DNA of 64,000 nt from Porogramme epimiltina (lineage: Eukaryota > Basidiomycota > Agaricomycetes > Polyporales > Polyporaceae): NCBI GenBank assembly GCA_900155495.1, contig FTLJ01000503.1, positions 1 through 64,000 on the forward strand. Direction: 5' to 3'. Below, piece after piece: positions 19,577 through 36,123 of this stretch (within the stretch, counting starts at the first letter, position 1; every line of letters begins with the position of its first letter). Made by a program: the position numbers and the translations under genes. The notes beneath the pieces are model-generated. The model ran no database searches, was not told where the DNA came from, and saw only the letters and a list, made by a program, of their open reading frames with translations.

Positions 19577-20964
19577 CCTGGCGCCTGTAAGTGAACATAA
19601 ACGAGAGAAAGAAGCAAGTCAGCTTACATGGACAAGACAGCAGAGAGCGGATCAGAGCGCATTGGAGACCAGAGGACGTGGAGTTTGCGAAGTATGCTCA
19701 CCCCCGAGGCTGACATTCGAAACTGGGCTGGCCCATGCGGCTGGTCAGCCAACTTGAAGACACAACATCACCATCGGTACTCACCTTTCTCAGATGCCTC
19801 TGTTGCATATGCACTCCACTATCCCGTTACCCATGTCGTCCATCCAAACCGCTTCATAAGGAATCAAGAAAAGGATGAGCACTGGGCTGCACCCCACCAG
19901 TTACCGTGGACAGGGTGATCAGGGCTAATTTGTCCTTCAACCTTCAGCCTTCATCTTCAGAGCGTAAGCAGCATGCGAGGTGCATTTGAAGATGAGTGCA
20001 TGTGCTGGAGCCACATCTGAGGGGACTGGTGCGGGCAAGTAGGAGAGCATGGGAGCATGAGCTGCCTAATAGGCAGGAGACAACTCACGAAGCGCGTCCC
20101 CGACGCGCTGCGAGTTGCGACGACTGACCAAAATCACGTGAGTGGACGGTGTGTCAGCGCCGCAGCCCGTGAGAATAAATGCCCGATTAAGAACTCGTTT
20201 ACCGGACACCAGTTCGGCAAGCGCCACAGAGCCCTAGCTCTTCCTTCATTCAAAGCGAATGATTGCACTCGGTGGTACTATGAGAACGTTTTTGAGCACT
20301 TTATATCCACTTATATAACTTTGATTGACCTGCATCTTATTATGGAAAAGTCTGTTTCAAATTTCACTGCGGTCCGCAACATACGATATGTATCCATGAA
20401 ACTCTTTCTGAATCGTCTTACCCTATGTATACGTATTTGAGAGCGCGCTGTACGCTATGACATGATTTTGCGCCATATTTAACAACTACTGCGATCCCAA
20501 GAATCACGATCGCGCATCGCAGAGCACAGCCTTCCGTGCTATGGTTCATGGAAACAAATTGGCGCTTGCCACCGAAGTTGCAAGAACACCATCCATATCG
20601 TGCAGCAGGCACCATGTTAGTCTCAACCGAGACGCCTCACTACCGCGGTATCCCTCGCTATGGATCCAAAATATTTGCCTACTTCTTCGTCTTGAGCTCA
20701 ACTGCCTTCCGCAGACTCCCTGAGTTGCCGTAAGCTGTAAGGTGATACTGCGGGCCGGGCAAGTGTCTCACACCAAATATACGGAAGTATAAAGACGTAA
20801 CTGATTGCACGGATGACTGTTTCAGACATAGCATCGACCGACTATGCTGAACTAGTGAAACTTTGACCCCGATATTTTCCCAGTCTACAATCCAACTCAG
20901 ATGGCGAGTACTTAAGGGACATGTTCGAAGAGACTGGAAAGGACTCATATTTCGCCCCCTAGTC
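19577..20964. other. Intergenic region
   Basis: No gene is supported. Reading frames reach 127 codons (20057-20440) but are compositionally unlike the neighbouring genes and lack splice context. It contains the promoter of the membrane-protein gene on its left and of the first small peptide gene on its right. Confidence 0.45.
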
Positions 20965-21169
20965 ATGGACCTCAAATCTATTCTCTTTACTGTCTATCTA
21001 TTCTATCTCGTCTCTCTGGGGCAAGGTACCCCTATCCCACACGCCGCCGAAGAAGGTGAGAAACGCATGATATACTGTCGATGACGTTTTGTATTGCAGC
21101 AGGCAGAGTCCACTAAAGCCATTGGATATAGGTGCCGACTTCGGAAGCGGGATGGAGTGGTTATCTTAA
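20965..21169 (+). CDS. Small secreted peptide 1, Trp-Leu family (42 aa)
   Basis: Two-exon gene not visible as a single frame. Exon 1 (20965-21055) encodes a signal peptide, MDLKSILFTVYLFYLVSLG, and TPIPHAAEE. A 76-base intron (GTGAGA...TATAG, 21056-21131, phase 1) leads to exon 2 (21132-21169), which reads GADFGSGMEWLS and stops. Cleavage before TPIP would release a mature peptide of about 20 residues without cysteines. It shares architecture with four other genes in the next 6 kb: signal exon, phase-1 intron, Pro just after the cleavage site and a C-terminal x-W-L core. The word AAGGGACAT lies upstream here and also upstream of peptide gene 3. Function is unknown. If the family grouping were wrong, this could be a chance frame, because it is very short. 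Confidence 0.6.
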
Positions 21170-22256
21170 TGAGTCATGATAAACAGCCTGGTGGGTTCTC
21201 CGGATTCGGACGCGGCTCCTTGTGACTTCTCCGCAATTAATGGTGCATACATCAGACCTGCAGTTGGACCCTTGTCAGTGCTTCCTCCGTCCCAACCTCC
21301 AAGCACATTCTAAACATGGCTCGACATCTACCTTCCAGGCACCAGACTTTGTCGCCCATAGTGTTCTTAGTCGTTCTCGCTATCATTTGAGACTCCTACT
21401 AGGCATAGTCCTATATTTTTATGTTATGGTTAACGTTGCTACTCGCGAGGGAGTGAGATTAGAGGCAGTATGCTAGACTCGCATACGTACCGGATGAGGG
21501 CTTCTACCTTACCAACGTCGAAGTACCTGTGAGAGAAGAGAGGCAAGCTTTGATGCCGACAGGCATTACTGGAATGCGATAACAAGTCATTATATGTTTG
21601 TTTTCACGAGTGTCCAACTGGATAATCGCTGCGTTGCGAGTCACTCAATACCGTATAGGCTTTGCTCCCTTTCGGCTACGTTTATAATTACACCGGAACG
21701 ACCCATCTTAGTGCAACCTGTACTCATCATCACCCGCAGTGCCGGGCCGGGCCCTGGCGGCTGTGATGGCGCGGGCCGGACTCGTGTTCACCGGAAACCT
21801 GCTTTTCCCTCGTTTCCGAGTGCTCTATTCCCTCGATATACCTCTTAGGAAGGCGTTCTAAAGTTCAGTGTGTGCTACATGCTTCCGTCATTCAAGCTCT
21901 GTTCATTAATATCTCGTGACCATAAGCAAGGAAGTCGTCCCCACGGAGATATTCTGCGCTTCCAGTCACCCCAAACTCTAATACGAGCGGAAACCTTACA
22001 CTTGTACGTATACGATCCTGCATACGTGTAGTCTTCAATGTTCTTCTCAGGTCCACTTTCAGATGATCATCGTATTAGGAGTAGGACGTAATCCTAATAT
22101 CTGCTACGGCTGTCTCGGCAATCAGTGGAGAGGCTGCGCTGCTGTTCGCACCCCGACTTCCATTCTCCCCTCCCCTGATGCAGCTTGCCCTCACAGGCTG
22201 CGGTTTCATCCCGTGGATTCCTTAAGCAGACCCGGAGCTTAAAAAATCTCAAAATC
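21170..22256. other. Spacer between peptide genes 1 and 2
   Basis: AT-rich to mixed sequence with a GC-rich block near 21740-21780. No gene was recognised. Confidence 0.45.
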
Positions 22257-22265
22257 GCCTATATA
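22257..22265 (+). promoter_or_regulatory. TATA-like box upstream of peptide gene 2
   Basis: CCTATATAA lies about 105 bases before the ATG at 22368, a position also seen for peptide gene 5 (TATAAA about 105 bases before its ATG). Confidence 0.5.
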
Positions 22266-22367
22266 ACGATACACAGGTTGCTTCCTTCATCTCTTGACCC
22301 CGCTGAGATTTCTTGTCAGTTACCTCTGCAGAGCTGCGGATTCAAAGAACCATCGGCACATTTGAAG

Positions 22368-22781
22368 ATGCTCACCACTACCGTCAAGGGCTTCGCGGCC
22401 TTCGCCCTCTTCGCTCTACTCGCGGGCGCTCTGTGTGCTTCTCCAGCGAACGCCGCGCCTGCCGGGGACAATGGTAAGCACTGTCCTCCGTTCCTACGTC
22501 CACCATCCCCACTCTATTGACTACTATCGTCTCCATTACCTGTCTACTGTGCTCTGCTGATACGACAGTTAGAAGAGGTAATGATACACTCTTACCTACA
22601 GCATATTTAGATCTAACTTATTTCGGATGGCAGAGATTGCTCGCGCCGGCGATGATGAAGGATTCAGACAGGACTCGGAATGGCTGTGGCAGCCAGAGGA
22701 ACGTCGTAGTATGTCTCTATGCTATCCTTTCAAAACGACTATGATTCTCATCTATTCTGCCCAAAAGCCATGGACGACTAA
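22368..22781 (+). CDS. Small secreted peptide 2, Trp-Leu family (about 64-67 aa)
   Basis: Exon 1 (22368-22473) encodes a strong signal peptide, beginning MLTTTVKGFAAFALFALLAG and continuing ALCASPANA, followed by APAGDN. Its phase-1 donor GTAAGC joins to 22634 either directly, through a 160-base intron, or through a 9-base micro-exon (VRR) at 22569-22577. The following exon reads IARAGDDEGFRQDSEWLWQP then EERR. A canonical GTATGT donor at 22709 and an AAAG acceptor at 22767 give a C-terminus TMDD, stop at 22779-22781. Without that last intron the frame runs to 22788. The EWLW core matches the x-W-L motif of the neighbouring peptides. A dibasic RR could be a protease site. Exon 1 is clear and the downstream splicing is the least certain part. 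Confidence 0.55.
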
Positions 22782-23253
22782 GCCGTAGTAGTGACTAGTG
22801 AGTAAAGCACTTCACTCATACACATTCTCGAAGACACTTCTAAGTTATGTGACTAGGTCCAGACTTCTCACGACTTGGAAGATCCGGAGGCTAAGGAGCA
22901 AGCGTAATAGCGAACCATAGGAGGATGCATCGCGTCGGTATCACAGAATTCTCAAGCTGTACAACTTACCTCGTGCTCCTATTGAACTGTTTATCACTGC
23001 CTCACTTCGATATGTCTGCTGGTCGAATTCTCGGTGACTGTGCTGTACTATCACATCTTTGCTGTCATGCGATATTGTGAGCTACTGAGATTGAAAGTTT
23101 TCTGCTCCCGTAGACGTGTCTGTACACATGGGTCATACTTCCAGGAAGATCTATTGATGGTATCATTCATATGCGAGAATTGCTTCACCTTAGCCTGTAA
23201 GGGACTGTTTGAGCATGCACCTGAACAACCCCATAGGATGAGATCTTGCTGTG
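22782..23253. other. Spacer between peptide genes 2 and 3
   Basis: No coding signal supported. Includes the 3' region of peptide gene 2 and the promoter of gene 3. Confidence 0.4.
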
Positions 23254-23268
23254 TATATAAGGGACATC
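23254..23268 (+). promoter_or_regulatory. TATA box and AAGGGACAT word upstream of peptide gene 3
   Basis: TATATAAGGGACAT lies about 80 bases before the ATG at 23338. The same TTAAGGGACAT arrangement precedes peptide gene 1 (near 20911-20921), suggesting a shared promoter. Confidence 0.5.
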
Positions 23269-23337
23269 CATTCGGAACAAGGAAATCCAGACATCCCTTT
23301 GGAGTCAACATTCCTTCGCACACACTCTCTTCATACT

Positions 23338-23563
23338 ATGAACACCTCCAATCAGTTTTTCGTTCTCCTCCTCTTATTCTCCCTCTTCCTCTATTCGACC
23401 AATGTGTCGTCCGCAGCCCCTATCATAGAATCCAGTATGTGTAATTCCAAGTTCTATTAGTACAGAAACAGCATACTAATTATATACTTCAGGGGAGGAG
23501 AGTCTCTCGCCCATTATAGATATGATATGGTTGGAGGTGACCGGTCGCCCTTCACAAGACTAG
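23338..23563 (+). CDS. Small secreted peptide 3, Trp-Leu family (55 aa)
   Basis: Exon 1 (23338-23434) encodes the signal peptide MNTSNQFFVLLLLFSLFLYS and TNVSSA, then APIIES. A 58-base phase-1 intron (GTATGT, branch ACTAAT, CAG; 23435-23492) leads to exon 2, which reads REESLSPIIDMIWLEVTG then RPSQD and a stop at 23561-23563. The predicted mature part is about 29 residues, acidic, with no Cys. WLE is shared exactly with peptides 4 and 5. The total of 55 residues equals peptide 4. A possible further intron after WLE would leave the protein ending in WLE. The close match in length, intron phase and motif to its neighbours is the main evidence that it is a gene. Function is unknown. Confidence 0.7.
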
Positions 23564-24898
23564 GGAATGGTCTTGAATCTCAAGTAGGTCCGTTATATAT
23601 TACTTCGCGGATATTTCACCCTGAACATTAGGTTAATGACAGCTAAAGGATGCAATTCACGGAGATGGGATTGTGTATCTGTCACTGGAGGGACTGCGAG
23701 AAGGGTCGTGTGGGAATAACGAGTTGGATAAACATGATTCATGGACACTCGTAGCATCGCCTCCTTGCGCATGAGCGTACTAGTAACTATAGCATTCATA
23801 CCTCGCCCAACTACTGCCATATGTAAATTTGCGAGCTGCAAATGACACATTCAGGAAGTCCTATCGGGGTGCTTGACCTCTCTGTCTGGTGTGCGGTTAC
23901 CTTCTATCGAGTACAAGCCCATACAGAGCGCTGCATTCAGACACCCGGACGCGGGAATATTGCGGCACCGGTCACAGACCCCTGAGAACGCCGGAGATTC
24001 TAGGCATTCACCCAGGTTGCAACTGCTAAGCTAGTGTATTTGACAGCCATCCCGAGACCCGACGTCAATGACAGATCTTCTCGATGCATATACGTCCGTA
24101 CGGATCAGTGTGTGCTATTTTTGCTGCCCTTCTGAGGGCAGAGAACGTACCGAAGTTTCACATCCGGAGAACATCTTCCTGCGATAAGAGAGAACCGCAG
24201 AGCCCGCGCCACTCGCGGTAGGCGTAATTCAAACCCTCGTTAAGTGAGAGGGCGCCCACCGTACAGGATTATGGCCTGCCGGTTTAGCTTGCAGAGCACA
24301 CGCAGCTGTAATCAAATGAACGACAAGATGTATTAATTCGCTTCCCAAATGTACACTACTGTATCCAAGATGTATGCGGGTGCAATACCACTACTGTGTG
24401 CTCAATAGTCCTGTGAGACGCCACCATCATCATGTACCGAGCACGTGCCACTGCCACTCAATGCCACGGGTATGCACGCTTACCACGTCTTCCATTTCAT
24501 TGAGCAGAATCGTACCTCCCGCTGCTTACCAAATTCCACTAGGTTTAGTACAGAAGCGCCCTTAGAGATGCGCTCGGGAGCTAGAGATGCATAGCTGCGA
24601 TCGGAGCATGCATGCAACGTTGGGCTTGTGACCTCAAAAGTCCGAAGTGAGCAGGGAGAGCCACACCCCGCCGGTTTCGGTATCTCTGAGAATCCAGTGA
24701 CGGTCACCGGGAGAATAGGGTGAGCGTCAGATAGTGGTGCGCTTCCTGCGGTTACGAAAACGTGAGGCGGTCGATTCTCTCATTGCACGAGGGAATAGAA
24801 TCACCCACCTTGAAGAGGGTTAGATAGCAGACTTGTCCAGAGAGTAGACATCCACTACTTTCCCTCCGCCCCACCCTGTATGAAGGACACCTCCAAGG
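23564..24898. other. Spacer between peptide genes 3 and 4
   Basis: No supported gene. Short frames on both strands lack motifs. Confidence 0.4.
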
Positions 24899-25137
24899 AT
24901 GGCCTCGTGTTTTCTTCTCCTTGCTGTCTTCCTTACGGTAGCCTTTGCCGTTATCTCCTCCACCGTGGGGTTCCCAACCAGTGGGCGTAGGACACCTAGT
25001 AAGTTTCGCTTCCCTTAGGGAGCATAGGCGTTGATTTGCCATAGCTAGAGACTAACCCATATACATCAGTTGAAGATATAAGCCTGCCAGTTCTCGAGGC
25101 TGCGTGGCTAGAATACCCGTCTGTCGGTGAAGAATGA
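24899..25137 (+). CDS. Small secreted peptide 4, Trp-Leu family (55 aa)
   Basis: Exon 1 (24899-24998) encodes the signal peptide MASCFLLLAVFLTVAFAVIS, then STVGFPTSGRRTP. A 71-base phase-1 intron with GTAAGT donor, CTAAC branch site and CAG acceptor (24999-25069) leads to exon 2, which reads IEDISLPVLEAAWLEYPSVG then EE and a stop at 25135-25137. The mature part would start near FPTS. A dibasic RR pair could be cut by a Kex2-type protease, releasing TPIEDIS... through the C-terminus. AWLEYPSVGEE aligns with RWLENPQVRDQ of peptide 5 and IWLEVTG of peptide 3. This is the best-defined splice structure in the family. Function is unknown. Confidence 0.72.
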
Positions 25138-25885
25138 GGTCACCGAATGCAATGAACAGGAAAGTTATGAAACATTCAGGGAAGTCTTGAGCAATAAGGC
25201 TGACCATACCCCCGTGCCTCAGATAGCATTTTAGCCCTGCAGAACGCGTATCAGAGGACGTAGTCAACGCGGCGCACTACGAATTGCTCAAAGGGTACGG
25301 AAACATGATCTACTTCTGGACGGTGAAAACAACAGGGTGCATGCTATTGGTGCATTTTGAGACGGTATTGTACAACTTGCGCTCTGGTATCTATAAGCAA
25401 CGTCGAGATTTTGCGTTGATCCTGCAGGGAAGTCATGAGTACCAGGAAGGTTGTATGAATCCGGTCGAACGCATGCTAGAATGGGTCCAGGCCCACACCC
25501 AGAGCGCTCCGATTGTCGGACTGAGAACATTTGTGACCTGCCGGCCTCTGCACTCAGTCGGAGATTGAAATTCCTGATCCTATCACTAGGCTGAGCTCGT
25601 TTTTGACGCCGTGCCCGTCTACATTTTTCCTCCGAACCACACCGTAGCCCGTAACTCTATCGGCTCTTGTCCCCGCTAATCAGGAATAAAGGGTAGCCAC
25701 GATGAATGATGATGCCCCTTCATCCTCGAGAGAACCTCTAAACTCTCATTATAAACCACGCTGTCATTATGATAGTTGAGATATTCCTAGATAACGACTT
25801 CGAGTTCCTGCAGACCTTCCACTGACAGAGATCCCATGCGTATAGACACAAAAACCCCCTTCATCTCAACTCAAGCTCAGATTCC
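25138..25885. other. Spacer between peptide gene 4 and candidate 6
   Basis: A 94-codon frame at 25284-25568 on the + strand has no recognisable feature. I see no supported gene. Confidence 0.4.
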
Positions 25886-26084
25886 ATGGCCTCCGGTATC
25901 ATTCTGACCACTACAGTTTTCACTCTTGTTGACGCCTCAGCGTGGACGAAGTAGATAGTGGGTTCTCTAAATGTGGCATTAGTACGCTCAAGTGGAGTTC
26001 TACCAGGAAACAGGGTTGCCTAAACTCACCAGACGTCTCGGACGGAGATTATGCCCATCTAAGGACTGGAATTCAGTAGACTAG
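25886..26084 (+). CDS. Candidate small secreted peptide 6 (38 aa, doubtful)
   Basis: An ATG at 25886 begins a signal-like segment, MASGIILTTTVFTLVDASA, then WTK. A weak donor (GTAGAT at 25951) and an acceptor at 26031-26032 would join to RLGRRLCPSKDWNSVD, with a stop at 26082-26084. It resembles the family in size, strand, position and a C-terminal Trp. However, its intron would be phase 2 rather than phase 1, it lacks the Pro after the signal, and it has DWN instead of W-L. It may be a decayed family member or chance. Confidence 0.3.
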
Positions 26085-26516
26085 ACGTCATTCTGATGGG
26101 CTCAGTCCTCGAGGCTGGTTCGAGGACCCGTGAGCCACTCTTGCTGATATCGCCCGCCGCATATTTACGTTCTGTCGTCCCTAGCCTTATGAAGGGTCCG
26201 ACCTTTCCAGCTTCTGCCCGCGCCGCCCGACGTACTCTTGTGGCCCCGTACCTTGTTCCGGATGGGCTGGCGCGAGGTAATAATAACCCCGCTAGGTTGT
26301 CTTGGCGCGCCGCAGACGGACGTTGAATACGGTGGTCTGATATCGAGGGGCTCCAACTGTCCAAGTCGAGGAACCCGCGCAGCAGATCAGCACGGGCGCT
26401 GCCAGAACGCCGCTACACCGATAGCGCAGACACTGCTATCGTGCATGACGCCTTGTTCCGTCTTTTCTCCTGCTGGGCTGGCACTAGTGCGACATTGCGC
26501 CGCAGTGCGGAGGCAG
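26085..26516. other. Spacer upstream of peptide gene 5
   Basis: Frames on both strands reach 111 codons but overlap one another and show no family motif. The right end is the promoter of peptide gene 5. Confidence 0.4.
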
Positions 26517-26522
26517 TATAAA
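26517..26522 (+). promoter_or_regulatory. TATAAA box upstream of peptide gene 5
   Basis: TATAAA about 105 bases before the ATG at 26626, the same spacing as in peptide gene 2. Confidence 0.5.
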
Positions 26523-26625
26523 GCATCGAGCACGCCCACAGCTCGCAAAACAACGGGTCTGTCGAGCGAGTGAAAAGCTTCAACAACAGCCCAATCTCGT
26601 CGACCTCGCACCTCGGGATACCGTA

Positions 26626-26831
26626 ATGCTCTCCTTGCCGCGTCTTCTTACGCTGTTCGCAGTCCTCGTTACGGCTTCCTATTCCCTTCCAATTGATCTC
26701 GGTAGGCCTCTTTCCTTTCCGCATTGATCACAGAAAATTTATTCTCAACCAACTTCACAGCTTTGCGCAATATTGACGATGAGCGCATTGACATCCGGTG
26801 GTTGGAAAACCCGCAGGTCAGGGACCAGTAA
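26626..26831 (+). CDS. Small secreted peptide 5, Trp-Leu family (48 aa)
   Basis: Exon 1 (26626-26701) encodes the signal peptide MLSLPRLLTLFAVLVTASYS, then LPIDL. A 59-base phase-1 intron (GTAGGC...CACAG, 26702-26760) leads to exon 2, which reads ALRNIDDERIDIRWLENPQ then VRDQ and a stop at 26829-26831. The C-terminus RWLENPQVRDQ aligns with AWLEYPSVGEE of peptide 4. An alternative intron from 26817 to 26923 would extend the protein with ELEFERPQPGDERSRR and more. The short form fits the family better. Mature peptide of about 28 residues, charged, no Cys. Its 3' end lies 0.8 kb from the 3' end of the UstYa-like gene on the other strand, the closest gene in that direction. Confidence 0.65.
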
Positions 26832-27600: not shown

Positions 27601-28253
27601 CTAGGCCTCAACGCCTCCCACACCCGTCTGCGCCTGTGACTCTATTTGTGTCTGCAACCACGCCTGGTGCTCGCGCTGGTTCTCCTCCGTCGCGGCGTAC
27701 ACCGCGCGCCAGTCGAGGCAGCGACGCACGGGATGCGGCTCGACGGGCTTGATGTTCGACGGGTACTGATACGGGTCCAAATTCGTGTCTCCCCTGCAGA
27801 GGATCATCTCGCGAATGTAGTTCATGCAGTGGCGGGCGGGCTGCTCCGTGCGCGCTGAGCGTGGCTTCGTGAGCTGGTCGCGCATGACGTCGAGGCAGCG
27901 CAGTTGGTGGAACATCGACACGAGGAATGGCTCGCGGGAGGGTCCGAGGTGCACGAGCCCGTCGCCCGGGACGAGCGCGCCCCATGCGTGCGAGGCGTTG
28001 AAGTCGTAGTGCAGACCGCTGTCGAAGGCGAAGGCCACGGGTTTGCGCTCGACTTCCCATAGGCCCCCTGCGAGAGCGAAGATGTTGGGTGAGGGACAAA
28101 GAGAAGAAATGAGAACAGAGACAGACCATTCACGAGCTCAGGTTTGGACGAGCGATAGAGCCATGTTAGGCTGATAGCCTTGTATGTGAAGTTGGCGAGA
28201 AGTAGTGTAATGGCCACACCGAGAGCAAGAGATTCGAGCCGTCTTGATGACAT
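27601..28253 (-). CDS. UstYa-like oxidase (DUF3328), copy UstYa-1, 197 aa
   Basis: Two-exon minus-strand gene. Exon 1 (28253-28127) starts MSSRRLESLALGVAITLLLA, an N-terminal membrane anchor, then WLYRSSKPELVN. A 59-base phase-1 intron leads to exon 2 (28067-27601): GLWEVERKPVAFAFDS, HAWGALVPGDGLVHLGP, then the family motifs. The first is FHQLRCLDVMRDQL, corresponding to HxxHC with Arg in place of the second His. The second is ARHCMNYIREMILCRGD. The end is DWRAVYAATEENQREH and GGVEA. UstYa-type proteins are copper-dependent oxidases that cyclise or modify peptides in dikaritin-type pathways (ustiloxin, phomopsin, cyclochlorotine). The substrate here is unknown. It is the only intact copy of this type. 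Relics lie near 44.4, 51.5 and 59.2 kb. Confidence 0.85.
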
Positions 28254-29400: not shown

Positions 29401-30405
29401 ATGCCCCCCCGGCCTAGCGTTTCAGAAGAAAACTACGCTCTTCTTCCAGACGAGGATCGCGAATCCCTCGAGCTTCAGAACAAGAACGAGCCCCAATGTA
29501 AGCCTCCACCACCTATTCACTCTCATACATCACTTAATCCAATTCGAACCCCTTCGCAGCCTCGCAGCCTCGATGGCGTAAGCCAGCAGAGGGCCGCTCC
29601 TCAGCGCTCACCTGGGTCCTCGCCCTCCTCGTGATCGTCGCAGCGACAGACGGCATCGCCGTCCTCTACATGTCCCGCATCATGGACACCGTCTACGCCG
29701 ACCTGTCCACCACCGATCTCGAGTTCGCGAACCCCTACCACGGCCTCGCCGAGCTCTACGCCTCTGGCACCATCAACGCCTCGCACATCGACCCCATCCT
29801 CAACCTCCCCCGCCTCGTCACCCAAGTCTCGTCCGCGCACCCGAACCAGCCCGCACCCGCGGGCGCGCACGACTACTGGCACCCCTCGTTTGGCACGCTC
29901 TCCCCACACGAGCACCGCCTGCGCGTCGCGCCGGGAGTGCGCACCGTCGCGCAGTTCCGCGCGCTCGACTTCGGCATGGAGCGCTGCGAGGTTGTGCTGC
30001 GCCTCCCAGGACCTGGCGACCCCGTCGAGAGCAAGGAGCGCCCGCAGTTCAGCGAGCGCACGGTGCTCGACGTGTTCATGCTCGATGCGCAGAGGCCGCT
30101 TGACGCGCGGAAGGTGACGTGGGACGCGCGGCCGCCGCGCCGCGCGGGCGAGCGCGTGATGACGATCGCACCGCGCCTCGGGGAGGAGACGCGCGTGGGG
30201 CAGTTCCCGTGCGCGTGGGGGAGCCTGCACACGTTCGAGGTGGCGTGCGCGGAGAGCGCGGGGAGCGCGTGCTTGGTGGACGTGTGGTCGAGCCAGAACA
30301 CGACGTATGGTGAGTACTCGGCTCGTCTCTGGGATGTTGTGTCGATGCGATGGAGGCTGATCGCTTGCGGCAGGTATCTACATGTATCAGCATCAGACGA
30401 TATGA
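29401..30405 (+). CDS. Single-pass membrane protein of unknown function, 292 aa (intact array copy)
   Basis: Three exons (29401-29497, 29560-30309, 30374-30405) give an in-frame 292-residue protein. It starts MPPRPSVSEENYALLPDED. After a basic stretch (PRWRKPAEGR) comes one membrane helix, ALTWVLALLVIVAATDGIAV. The lumenal or extracellular part includes ANPYHGLAELYASGTINASH, then DYWHPSFGTLSPHEHR, FRALDFGMERCEVVLRLPG, TVLDVFMLDAQRPLD, an APRLGEETRV...FPCAWGSLHTFEVAC segment and the end YGIYMYQHQTI. The type II membrane layout and the beta-rich body suggest a secretory-pathway protein. I do not recognise a named domain. It starts 1.15 kb from UstYa-1 in divergent orientation, which suggests shared regulation. 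Relics occur at 38.5, 52.7-53.6 and 60.6-61.4 kb. Confidence 0.75.
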
Positions 30406-30972
30406 ACGTTTGAGTTCCAGAGTGGAGCTTGGAACGGAGCCCGCAGGGTATCGCTAGGCTACGTGTACACTATTAGATGCCGAGACCCAAGGCGATCTAT
30501 CGCATCACCCCAGATATTCTACTACATCTATGAAAGTTTTATTCCACATCCCATTATCCAGTATTGGTGCGCGCAACGTCCCTTTGAATTTCTGCGTACC
30601 GCGCCAACTCAATGTGTGGATGCTTATTATGAACTCACCATTGGCACTGCTGGAAGCTTCGTTGTCACGAGGTCAAAGTCCGGCGCTCATCGGCTTTCTT
30701 TCCACCTACGCTTACGCGGCCATTCATCTTCTATTGGCATATCCGCTCCCCAACCCCTACAGCCTTCAACGAAACTTGGCAAAGTATCCTCACTTATACC
30801 ATCTTCCCTCTTCCCCGCGTCCATTTCGTGCCCCCAGTTCTCTCGAAAGCCTCATACTATCAACGATCTCGTACTTCTTGAATCATTTTCTGTCTGCATC
30901 GCTGGTTGTCATGGTGAGTCCAGCCATTTTTCTGCTATAGTGTAGCGCTCATGAAAACCCCCGGGTAGTAAT
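30406..30972 (+). promoter_or_regulatory. HET leader/5' region (array copy 1)
   Basis: A conserved non-coding leader repeated before every HET copy (near 39.26, 46.03, 53.6 and 61.42 kb, and as an orphan at 38.64 kb). Shared marks are a TTTCCAC-TACGCTTACGCG block, a C/T-rich tract and a GTGAGT...TAG intron-like segment ending shortly before the ATG, which suggests a spliced 5' untranslated region. Confidence 0.5.
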
Positions 30973-35416: not shown

Positions 35417-36123
35417 ATGTCCGCCCGCCATCTCGCGATAGTCTCCGTCGTCCTTCTGGGAGTCCTCAACGCCTGGGTAGATATCCTCCATGTGCGCGAG
35501 TCCCGCCGTGTCGCCCTGACGCGCCCACCACCGCTCGACCATTACAGTGAGTTCTTCATCCTAGGTCTTGTTCTTCCGGAGCAGGACATAACACCTTCTG
35601 TGCAGGCTATGTCGAAGACGACTACCCGCCCCGCATGCCCCTCCCCTCCGCCCGCCCCGCGGTGAAGCTCGCCTTCGAGGACACTGCTCGCTACGCTCTC
35701 GACTCCCCCGAGGCGCACGGCGAGTGGCTTTGGACAGCCACCGTCGGCGACGGCAACGTCCACTACGGCCCAAACCACAAGCTCTTCGTCGTCTCCGTCA
35801 CGCATCAGCTCCACTGCCTCCGCTCCTACCGCGAGGCTCTCATCAAGGACGGCCCCCCGCGCGGGCATGCCCTCAGCCACCTCACCCACTGCATCAACTT
35901 CTTCCGCATGTCGACGCTCTGCGCAGCGGACACGACGCTCGAGCCGTCCGACGCGTTCGCGCGCAACTACACCCTCGAGCGCGCCCGGGGCGAGCACGTG
36001 TGCATGGACTGGCCGGGGTTCTACGACGAGATGAAGACCAACTACGTCGGGTGGCAGAAGGTGCAGGCCGAGCTCGAGGACGCGGCGCGCGTGGGTGGAA
36101 ACGCACATATACATATATCATAG
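35417..36123 (+). CDS. UstYa-like oxidase (DUF3328), copy UstYa-2, 215 aa
   Basis: Exon 1 (35417-35546) encodes MSARHLAIVSVVLLGVLNAW, a membrane anchor, then LTRPPPLDHY. A phase-1 intron (35547-35605) leads to exon 2: SYVEDDYPPRMPLPS, then GEWLWTATVGDGNVHYGPNH. Both canonical motifs are intact: THQLHCLRSYREAL and HLTHCINFFRMSTLCAADT (two HxxHC). The end is ERARGEHVCMDWPGFYDEM, KTNYVGWQKVQ and HIHIS. The family acts as oxidases in fungal ribosomal-peptide pathways, probably anchored in secretory membranes. This is a different subtype from UstYa-1, which has degenerate motifs. It lies downstream of HET copy 1. Relics of its 3' end follow each later unit, at 39.1, 42.5, 45.1, 49.5 and 57.4 kb. 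Confidence 0.88.

Follow-up and report, generated by a model that had tools for sequence, protein, structure and literature searches.

Tiny secreted-peptide genes beside UstYa-type genes in Porogramme epimiltina: probable precursors of a little-known kind of modified peptide

The first 64,000 nucleotides of contig FTLJ01000503.1 of the polypore Porogramme epimiltina (hereafter the window; C403:1-64000 in our contig labels, within a genome of 41.9 Mb in 926 contigs) contain a row of five very small genes predicted to encode secreted peptides with a Trp-Leu core (Table 1). The original prediction, made from the letters of the window, had described five two-exon genes with signal peptides, and splice models agree with its start positions, its GT-AG splicing and its phase-1 first introns in all five cases. 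The two-exon plan holds for genes 1, 3, 4 and 5, whereas gene 2 is modelled with four exons, including a 9-nt mini-exon, and three introns that are all in phase 1. Some of the C-terminal ends quoted earlier are not true C-termini, with gene 2 running beyond DSEWLWQP to EERRTMDD and gene 3 to VTGRPSQD. The predicted spliced products of genes 1 to 5 are 42, 67, 55, 55 and 48 amino acids long. Each combines a signal-like N-terminus, as judged by hydropathy, with an X-Pro at the likely mature start, placed by eye (gene 2 offers two candidates), and an acidic stretch with a net charge of -3 to -5 and a single WL. As had been proposed, a Pro follows the likely signal cleavage, and Cys is absent from the mature part, in all five.

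While it had the family and its gene plan right, the earlier reading of the array overlooked the adjoining enzyme genes. One UstYa-type gene, UstYa-A, adjoins gene 5 about 0.8 kb from the array, and gene 1 lies 6.8 kb from a UstYa exon; a But2-like gene sits between UstYa-A and a second, diverged UstYa-type gene, UstYa-B, and is followed by a HET gene. The best intron of UstYa-A, out of four possible, is 28126-28068, and its two HXXHC motifs are incomplete (HQLRC and PARHC). UstYa-B has its best intron at 35547-35605 and carries both motifs complete (HQLHC and HLTHC). The window copy of the But2-like protein falls below the PF09792 cut-off, and the window proteins recognised by Pfam include the HET, DUF6533 and UstYa families. 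The UstYa and But2-like neighbours point to a likely pathway for the peptides.

We then scanned the window with a strict gene plan, namely a signal-like N-terminus, an X-Pro, a phase-1 GT-YAG intron (44-94 nt) and a second exon that is free of Cys, no longer than 38 amino acids and contains [WY][LV]. Between 19.5 and 27.5 kb this returned five starts, corresponding to genes 1, 3, 4 and 5 and a spurious start at 22925, whereas 300 order-1 Markov resamplings of the same stretch gave no start in 295 cases, one in 3 and two in 2, a contrast that is somewhat overstated because the criterion was tuned on the hits. The extra introns of gene 2 hide it from the strict scan. The first form of the scan, which predates knowledge of any outside relatives, had already picked genes 1, 3, 4 and 5 in the 64 kb, together with + strand starts at 19735 and 43476 and four - strand starts elsewhere. 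When the residues of the mature parts were permuted, WL never appeared in all five simultaneously (0/20000). Both the resampling (five starts vs at most two) and the permutation bear out the earlier view that these are more than chance frames.

If the peptides are UstYa substrates, relatives would be expected at other UstYa loci, and this prediction was tested in the same genome. At least 19 UstYa exon matches were found on 10 contigs, with additional fragments recovered by protein queries, and 271 kb around the exon matches plus the window were scanned for peptide genes (334,973 bp in 12 stretches on 10 contigs, of the 41.9 Mb), omitting degenerate UstYa/But2-like copies on C17, C247, C376, C219 and C403 64-84 kb. 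Scans and splice models yielded four further genes of the same plan at UstYa loci, on C113, C26, C293 and C223, all with phase-1 introns. For the last of these, the scan gave exon 1 with a different splice; the phase-1 splice was read by eye, a GTC donor was then admitted, and the model was confirmed. Over the full 334,973 bp the strict scan returned 10 starts, of which nine (including the spurious 22925) lie within 7.5 kb of a UstYa exon, a limit set after the hits and covering 182,662 bp, and one, C326:9184, falls in the remaining 152,311 bp; 12 resamplings of the full set gave 0 or 1 start each. On visual inspection, C326:9184 and C403:22925, both among the 10 strict starts, were set aside as poor gene models, as were the looser-scan starts C99:114178, C316:47903, C316:51805, C326:40305 and C226:38415.

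These relatives support the view that the tiny secreted peptides form a family, marked by a common gene plan and a Trp-Leu core. The core itself, Trp-Leu in the five window genes and on C223, is better written [W/Y]-[L/V], since it is Tyr-Leu on C26 and Tyr-Val on C293. Genes 2, 3 and 5, but not genes 1 and 4, have a TATA-like element between -140 and -30, a pattern spotted by eye prior to counting; over the nine core genes the element is present in 7/9, against 988 of 11056 background ATGs (8.9%).

The enzyme genes recur together with the peptides. All four contigs that bear clade A in the UstYa tree (C403, C26, C223 and C293) carry UstYa-A and UstYa-B, a [WY][LV] peptide and a But2-like gene, and on C26, C223 and C293 the But2-like gene lies between the members of the UstYa pair or within a few kb. 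Each of the 29 But2-like matches listed, a good number of which are broken copies, falls on a contig with UstYa matches as well (C403, C26, C223, C293, C226, C17 and C247). At E<=1, PF09792 was detected in the genome only on C293 (28 bits, cut-off 24.2) and C223.

In a tree of 18 UstYa exons (C403:92980 omitted), clade A unites C403, C26, C293 and C223 (support 100/99), with C226 as its sister (89/83), and clade B unites C403, C26, C293, C223, C226 and C113 (94/88, slightly short of the tool's star mark); of these three forks, clade A alone is starred. The HXXHC motif, which is suspected to form part of the active site (PMC12048977) and which we assume to bind metal, is complete twice in five of the six clade-B exons, those of C403, C26, C293, C223 and C226. 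All four clade-A exons read HQL[R/Q/E]C and xx[R/H]HC, each motif being short of one His, and the sister exon C226:36.4 is likewise incomplete (HQLRC and LAAHC). This distribution suggests that UstYa-A and UstYa-B are unequal partners, the active site being that of B. Variation in the peptides runs parallel to that in the enzymes. Within clade A, C223 and C293 are nearest, with weak support (83/74), and their peptide cores are the most alike (WLGAAVE and YVGAAIE; p 0.002). Gene 3 and the C113 peptide both carry SP-hydrophobic-IWLE, with p at 0.001, the lowest value that the test can return. In total, 8 of 36 peptide pairs fall below p 0.02 (uncorrected), and in the gene 4/C293 pair the match falls outside the core.

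Table 1. Peptide genes, candidate precursors and enzyme genes (C403 is the contig of the window; distances are to the nearest UstYa exon unless stated).
Feature	Position	Strand	Exons	Sequence	Details
Peptide gene 1	20965..21169	+	20965-21055, 21132-21169	MDLKSILFTVYLFYLVSLGQGTPIPHAAEE / GADFGSGMEWLS	splice model, scans
Peptide gene 2	22368..22781	+	22368-22473, 22569-22577, 22634-22708, 22768-22781	tail DSEWLWQPEERRTMDD	
Peptide gene 3	23338..23563	+	23338-23434, 23493-23563	tail SPIIDMIWLEVTGRPSQD	
Peptide gene 4	24899..25137	+	24899-24998, 25070-25137	tail LPVLEAAWLEYPSVGEE	
Peptide gene 5	26626..26831	+	26626-26701, 26761-26831	tail IDIRWLENPQVRDQ	
Peptide gene on C113	C113:51899			...VVELIWLEAANK / ...SPVVELIWLEAANK	0.9 kb; closest relative of gene 3
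Peptide gene on C26	C26:58855			...LPTESEYLE	0.6 kb
Peptide gene on C293	C293:10298			...NSYVGAAIEYATMLRA / ...VENSYVGAAIEYATMLRA	2.7 kb
Peptide gene on C223	C223:20292			...RGWLGAAVEHDTDA / ...AQRGWLGAAVEHDTDA	3.0 kb
Possible precursor, other core, outside the nine	C226:45206-45403			...RRQSSCPVGRDVDSTGLEDCF	Cys-containing core QSSCPVGRDVDSTGLEDCF
Possible precursor, other core, outside the nine	C326:45343-45540			...MPIASPEADVDP / APGALWEGSAHVAVSSA	2.7 kb from third-clade UstYa gene
UstYa-A	27601..28253	-			N-terminal hydrophobic anchor; PF11807, 43.1 bits (cut-off 25); 197 aa
But2-like protein	29401..30413	+			N-terminal hydrophobic segment; 307 or 316 aa (two models)
UstYa-B	35417..36123	+			N-terminal hydrophobic anchor; PF11807, 46.3 bits (cut-off 25); 215 aa

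A PDB sequence search with UstYa-A gave no match, and the matches for the But2-like protein (E 0.29) and UstYa-B (E 0.84) were taken as chance; predicted folds of the But2-like exon (predicted local distance difference test, pLDDT, 54.2) and of UstYa-B (pLDDT 58.5) were rejected as too poor. The But2-like gene at 29401-30413 is without an intron seemingly present in its C26 relative, between ...ERHLLVDSK and THTLVQFRAIDFG, a possible case of intron loss. C403 28000-63400 and 64000-98777 form a duplicated, mostly degenerate array of UstYa, But2-like and HET genes, with related fragments on C17, C247 (UstYa-B 87% identical), C376 and C219, and the window holds five HET frames, at 30955, 39307, 46419, 54119 and 61980. 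An amino acid permease gene of several exons (PF13520, 538-2495) occupies the start of the contig, about 18 kb from the cluster.

Set beside UstYa enzymes and recurring with them elsewhere in the genome, the tiny peptide genes probably supply the starting material of a modified peptide of a little-known kind. From the gene plan, the linkage, the recurrence and the motif states, all read in the sequence, we consider it likely, if well short of certain, that the five genes are the precursor-peptide genes of a UstYa-type locus for a ribosomally synthesised and post-translationally modified peptide (RiPP). In such a scheme, the spliced genes would give precursors that enter the endoplasmic reticulum, where cleavage by signal peptidase would expose the X-Pro. 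Anchored in the membrane, and with their domains on the lumenal side, UstYa-A and UstYa-B would work as an unequal pair, UstYa-B with its complete HXXHC motifs providing the suspected active site and UstYa-A serving mainly in support or substrate recognition. Oxidation of the Trp/Tyr-Leu/Val site would fall to the pair, the simplest outcomes being a hydroxylation or a crosslink from the aromatic to the aliphatic residue, and the But2-like protein may assist in the lumen. Ordinary secretory peptidases would then trim the ends before the product is secreted, and five precursors at one locus with one enzyme set could yield a set of related products. The least secure part of the scheme is the chemistry, and we put forward the Trp/Tyr-to-aliphatic crosslink tentatively, at somewhat below an even chance.

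Several observations weigh against this interpretation. The strict criterion was shaped after the hits were known, and the 7.5-kb limit was set wide enough to take in gene 1 at 6.8 kb. On C226 the UstYa A/B pair is diverged, as is the But2-like gene, and the same-plan peptide that accompanies them, about 2 kb from the latter and 6.9 kb from the pair, has a Cys core and is possibly a disulfide-bearing cousin. C113 combines UstYa-B with an IWLE peptide, but the 10 kb searched there hold no recognised UstYa-A or But2-like gene, and its clade-B motifs are broken (YEFHC and HVSRC). The stretches scanned at the third-clade UstYa loci (C326, C99, C782 and C223:27.8) and on C316 showed no clear [WY][LV] peptide. 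A genome search for S41 peptidases gave one weak match, on C508, and none at these loci, and a genome search for a tyrosinase of the UstQ/PhomQ type gave no match, although the controls gave none either. Finally, DUF3328 (UstYa-type) enzymes also serve non-RiPP pathways (PMC12048977).

This last point favours an alternative that we hold to be improbable, if the least so of the rivals, in which the peptides act unmodified as secreted signalling or effector-like proteins and the UstYa genes are mere neighbours with another substrate. Many small secreted fungal proteins likewise have AP- mature starts without known modification. If the association were fortuitous, however, a [WY][LV] peptide would hardly be found by an A/B pair on all four clade-A contigs, with a same-plan peptide of another core on C226, and nine of the 10 scan starts (one of them spurious) would not be expected near UstYa exons when 152 of the 335 kb scanned lies further off. 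Rather less probable still is that these are dikaritin precursors of the classical kind whose repeats have been lost, with Kex2 releasing the core ahead of the usual Tyr-Ile type crosslink: the DUF3328 pair, the signal-like N-terminus, the aromatic-aliphatic core and the dibasic sites in the mature parts of genes 2 and 4 would all fit, but seven of the nine mature parts are without such a site, Trp takes the place of Tyr in 7/9, and neither repeats nor an S41 peptidase are found at these loci. Chance open frames or artefactual splicing are very improbable, for although short exons are easily conjured, the splicing is predicted and the scan was tuned on its own hits, the resampling controls lead us to reject chance frames, in line with the common intron phase, the relatives at other UstYa loci and the TATA-like elements.

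The reading of the five genes as RiPP precursors bears on other mushroom-forming fungi, in which UstYa genes are present; Pleurotus, for example, has 16, described as 'probably involved in dikaritin production' (PMC8893723). Single-core precursors would be overlooked by screens based on repeats and Kex2 sites. Should the link prove true, a signal peptide, an X-Pro, a phase-1 intron and a short acidic [WY][LV] exon near a UstYa A/B pair would together make a search rule for RiPPs of this sort in these fungi. The loci also provide a ready-made case for testing why UstYa enzymes pair, with both HXXHC motifs partly lost in clade A and intact in five of the six clade-B exons.

Among known systems, the closest are the dikaritins (ustiloxin, phomopsin and asperipin-2a; UstYa/UstYb, DUF3328), in which UstYa-family genes also stand beside a signal-peptide precursor. 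There are two UstY genes in the ustiloxin cluster too (PMC6514808), where the first intermediate requires ustQ, ustYa and ustYb together (PMC6514808), and an aromatic-aliphatic motif is likewise part of the phomopsin core (YVIPID). Here, DUF3328 (PF11807) genes were found in the cluster, with a precursor bearing a signal-like N-terminus (by hydropathy) nearby, but multiple repeated cores and Kex2 sites bounding the cores were not. Unlike dikaritins, the present loci have one core per gene and several genes rather than repeats; a dibasic (Kex2) site is confined to genes 2 and 4, Trp-Leu is the commonest site, the partner is But2-like, and UstYa-A is without complete HXXHC motifs. Since repeats and bounding Kex2 sites are absent and these loci yielded no S41 peptidase, we do not file the system as a dikaritin, and suggest only that it works like a UstYa-type RiPP.

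Basidiomycete mating pheromone precursors are also encoded by tiny genes in arrays, and are defined by a C-terminal CaaX box. The peptides described here have instead a signal-like N-terminus, and the absence of Cys from all nine mature parts means that there is no C-terminal CaaX box, ruling out this identity. They resemble the Kex2-processed repeat proteins (KEPs) in being short secreted precursors (PMC6339444), and whereas XA/XP (STE13) dipeptides follow the Kex2 site in some KEPs (PMC6339444), the XP here follows the likely signal cleavage. However, Kex2 sites are mostly lacking and there are no internal repeats separated by them, which rules out a KEP identity; a KEP screen built on signal peptide, repeats and Kex2 sites (PMC6339444) would therefore miss these peptides.

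The original prediction knew of no described family of this form, and the gene plan is indeed not described in the small sample of literature consulted, although the surrounding enzyme genes put it in the setting of fungal RiPPs of the UstYa type. We regard it as evenly balanced whether these loci form a separate basidiomycete RiPP class, with single-core, mostly Kex2-free Trp/Tyr-Leu/Val precursors, an unequal UstYa pair in which A has incomplete motifs and B is catalytic, a But2-like lumenal protein, and a row of precursor paralogues at one locus served by one enzyme set. Lichen DUF3328 clusters are similar in being of UstY type, with no repeat precursor found in them (PMC12048977), and a single core peptide is one possibility named by their authors for clusters in which no precursor was found (PMC12048977). 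Those clusters are from lichen-forming ascomycetes, with no precursor named in the text consulted (PMC12048977), whereas in P. epimiltina candidate precursors recur together with the enzymes.

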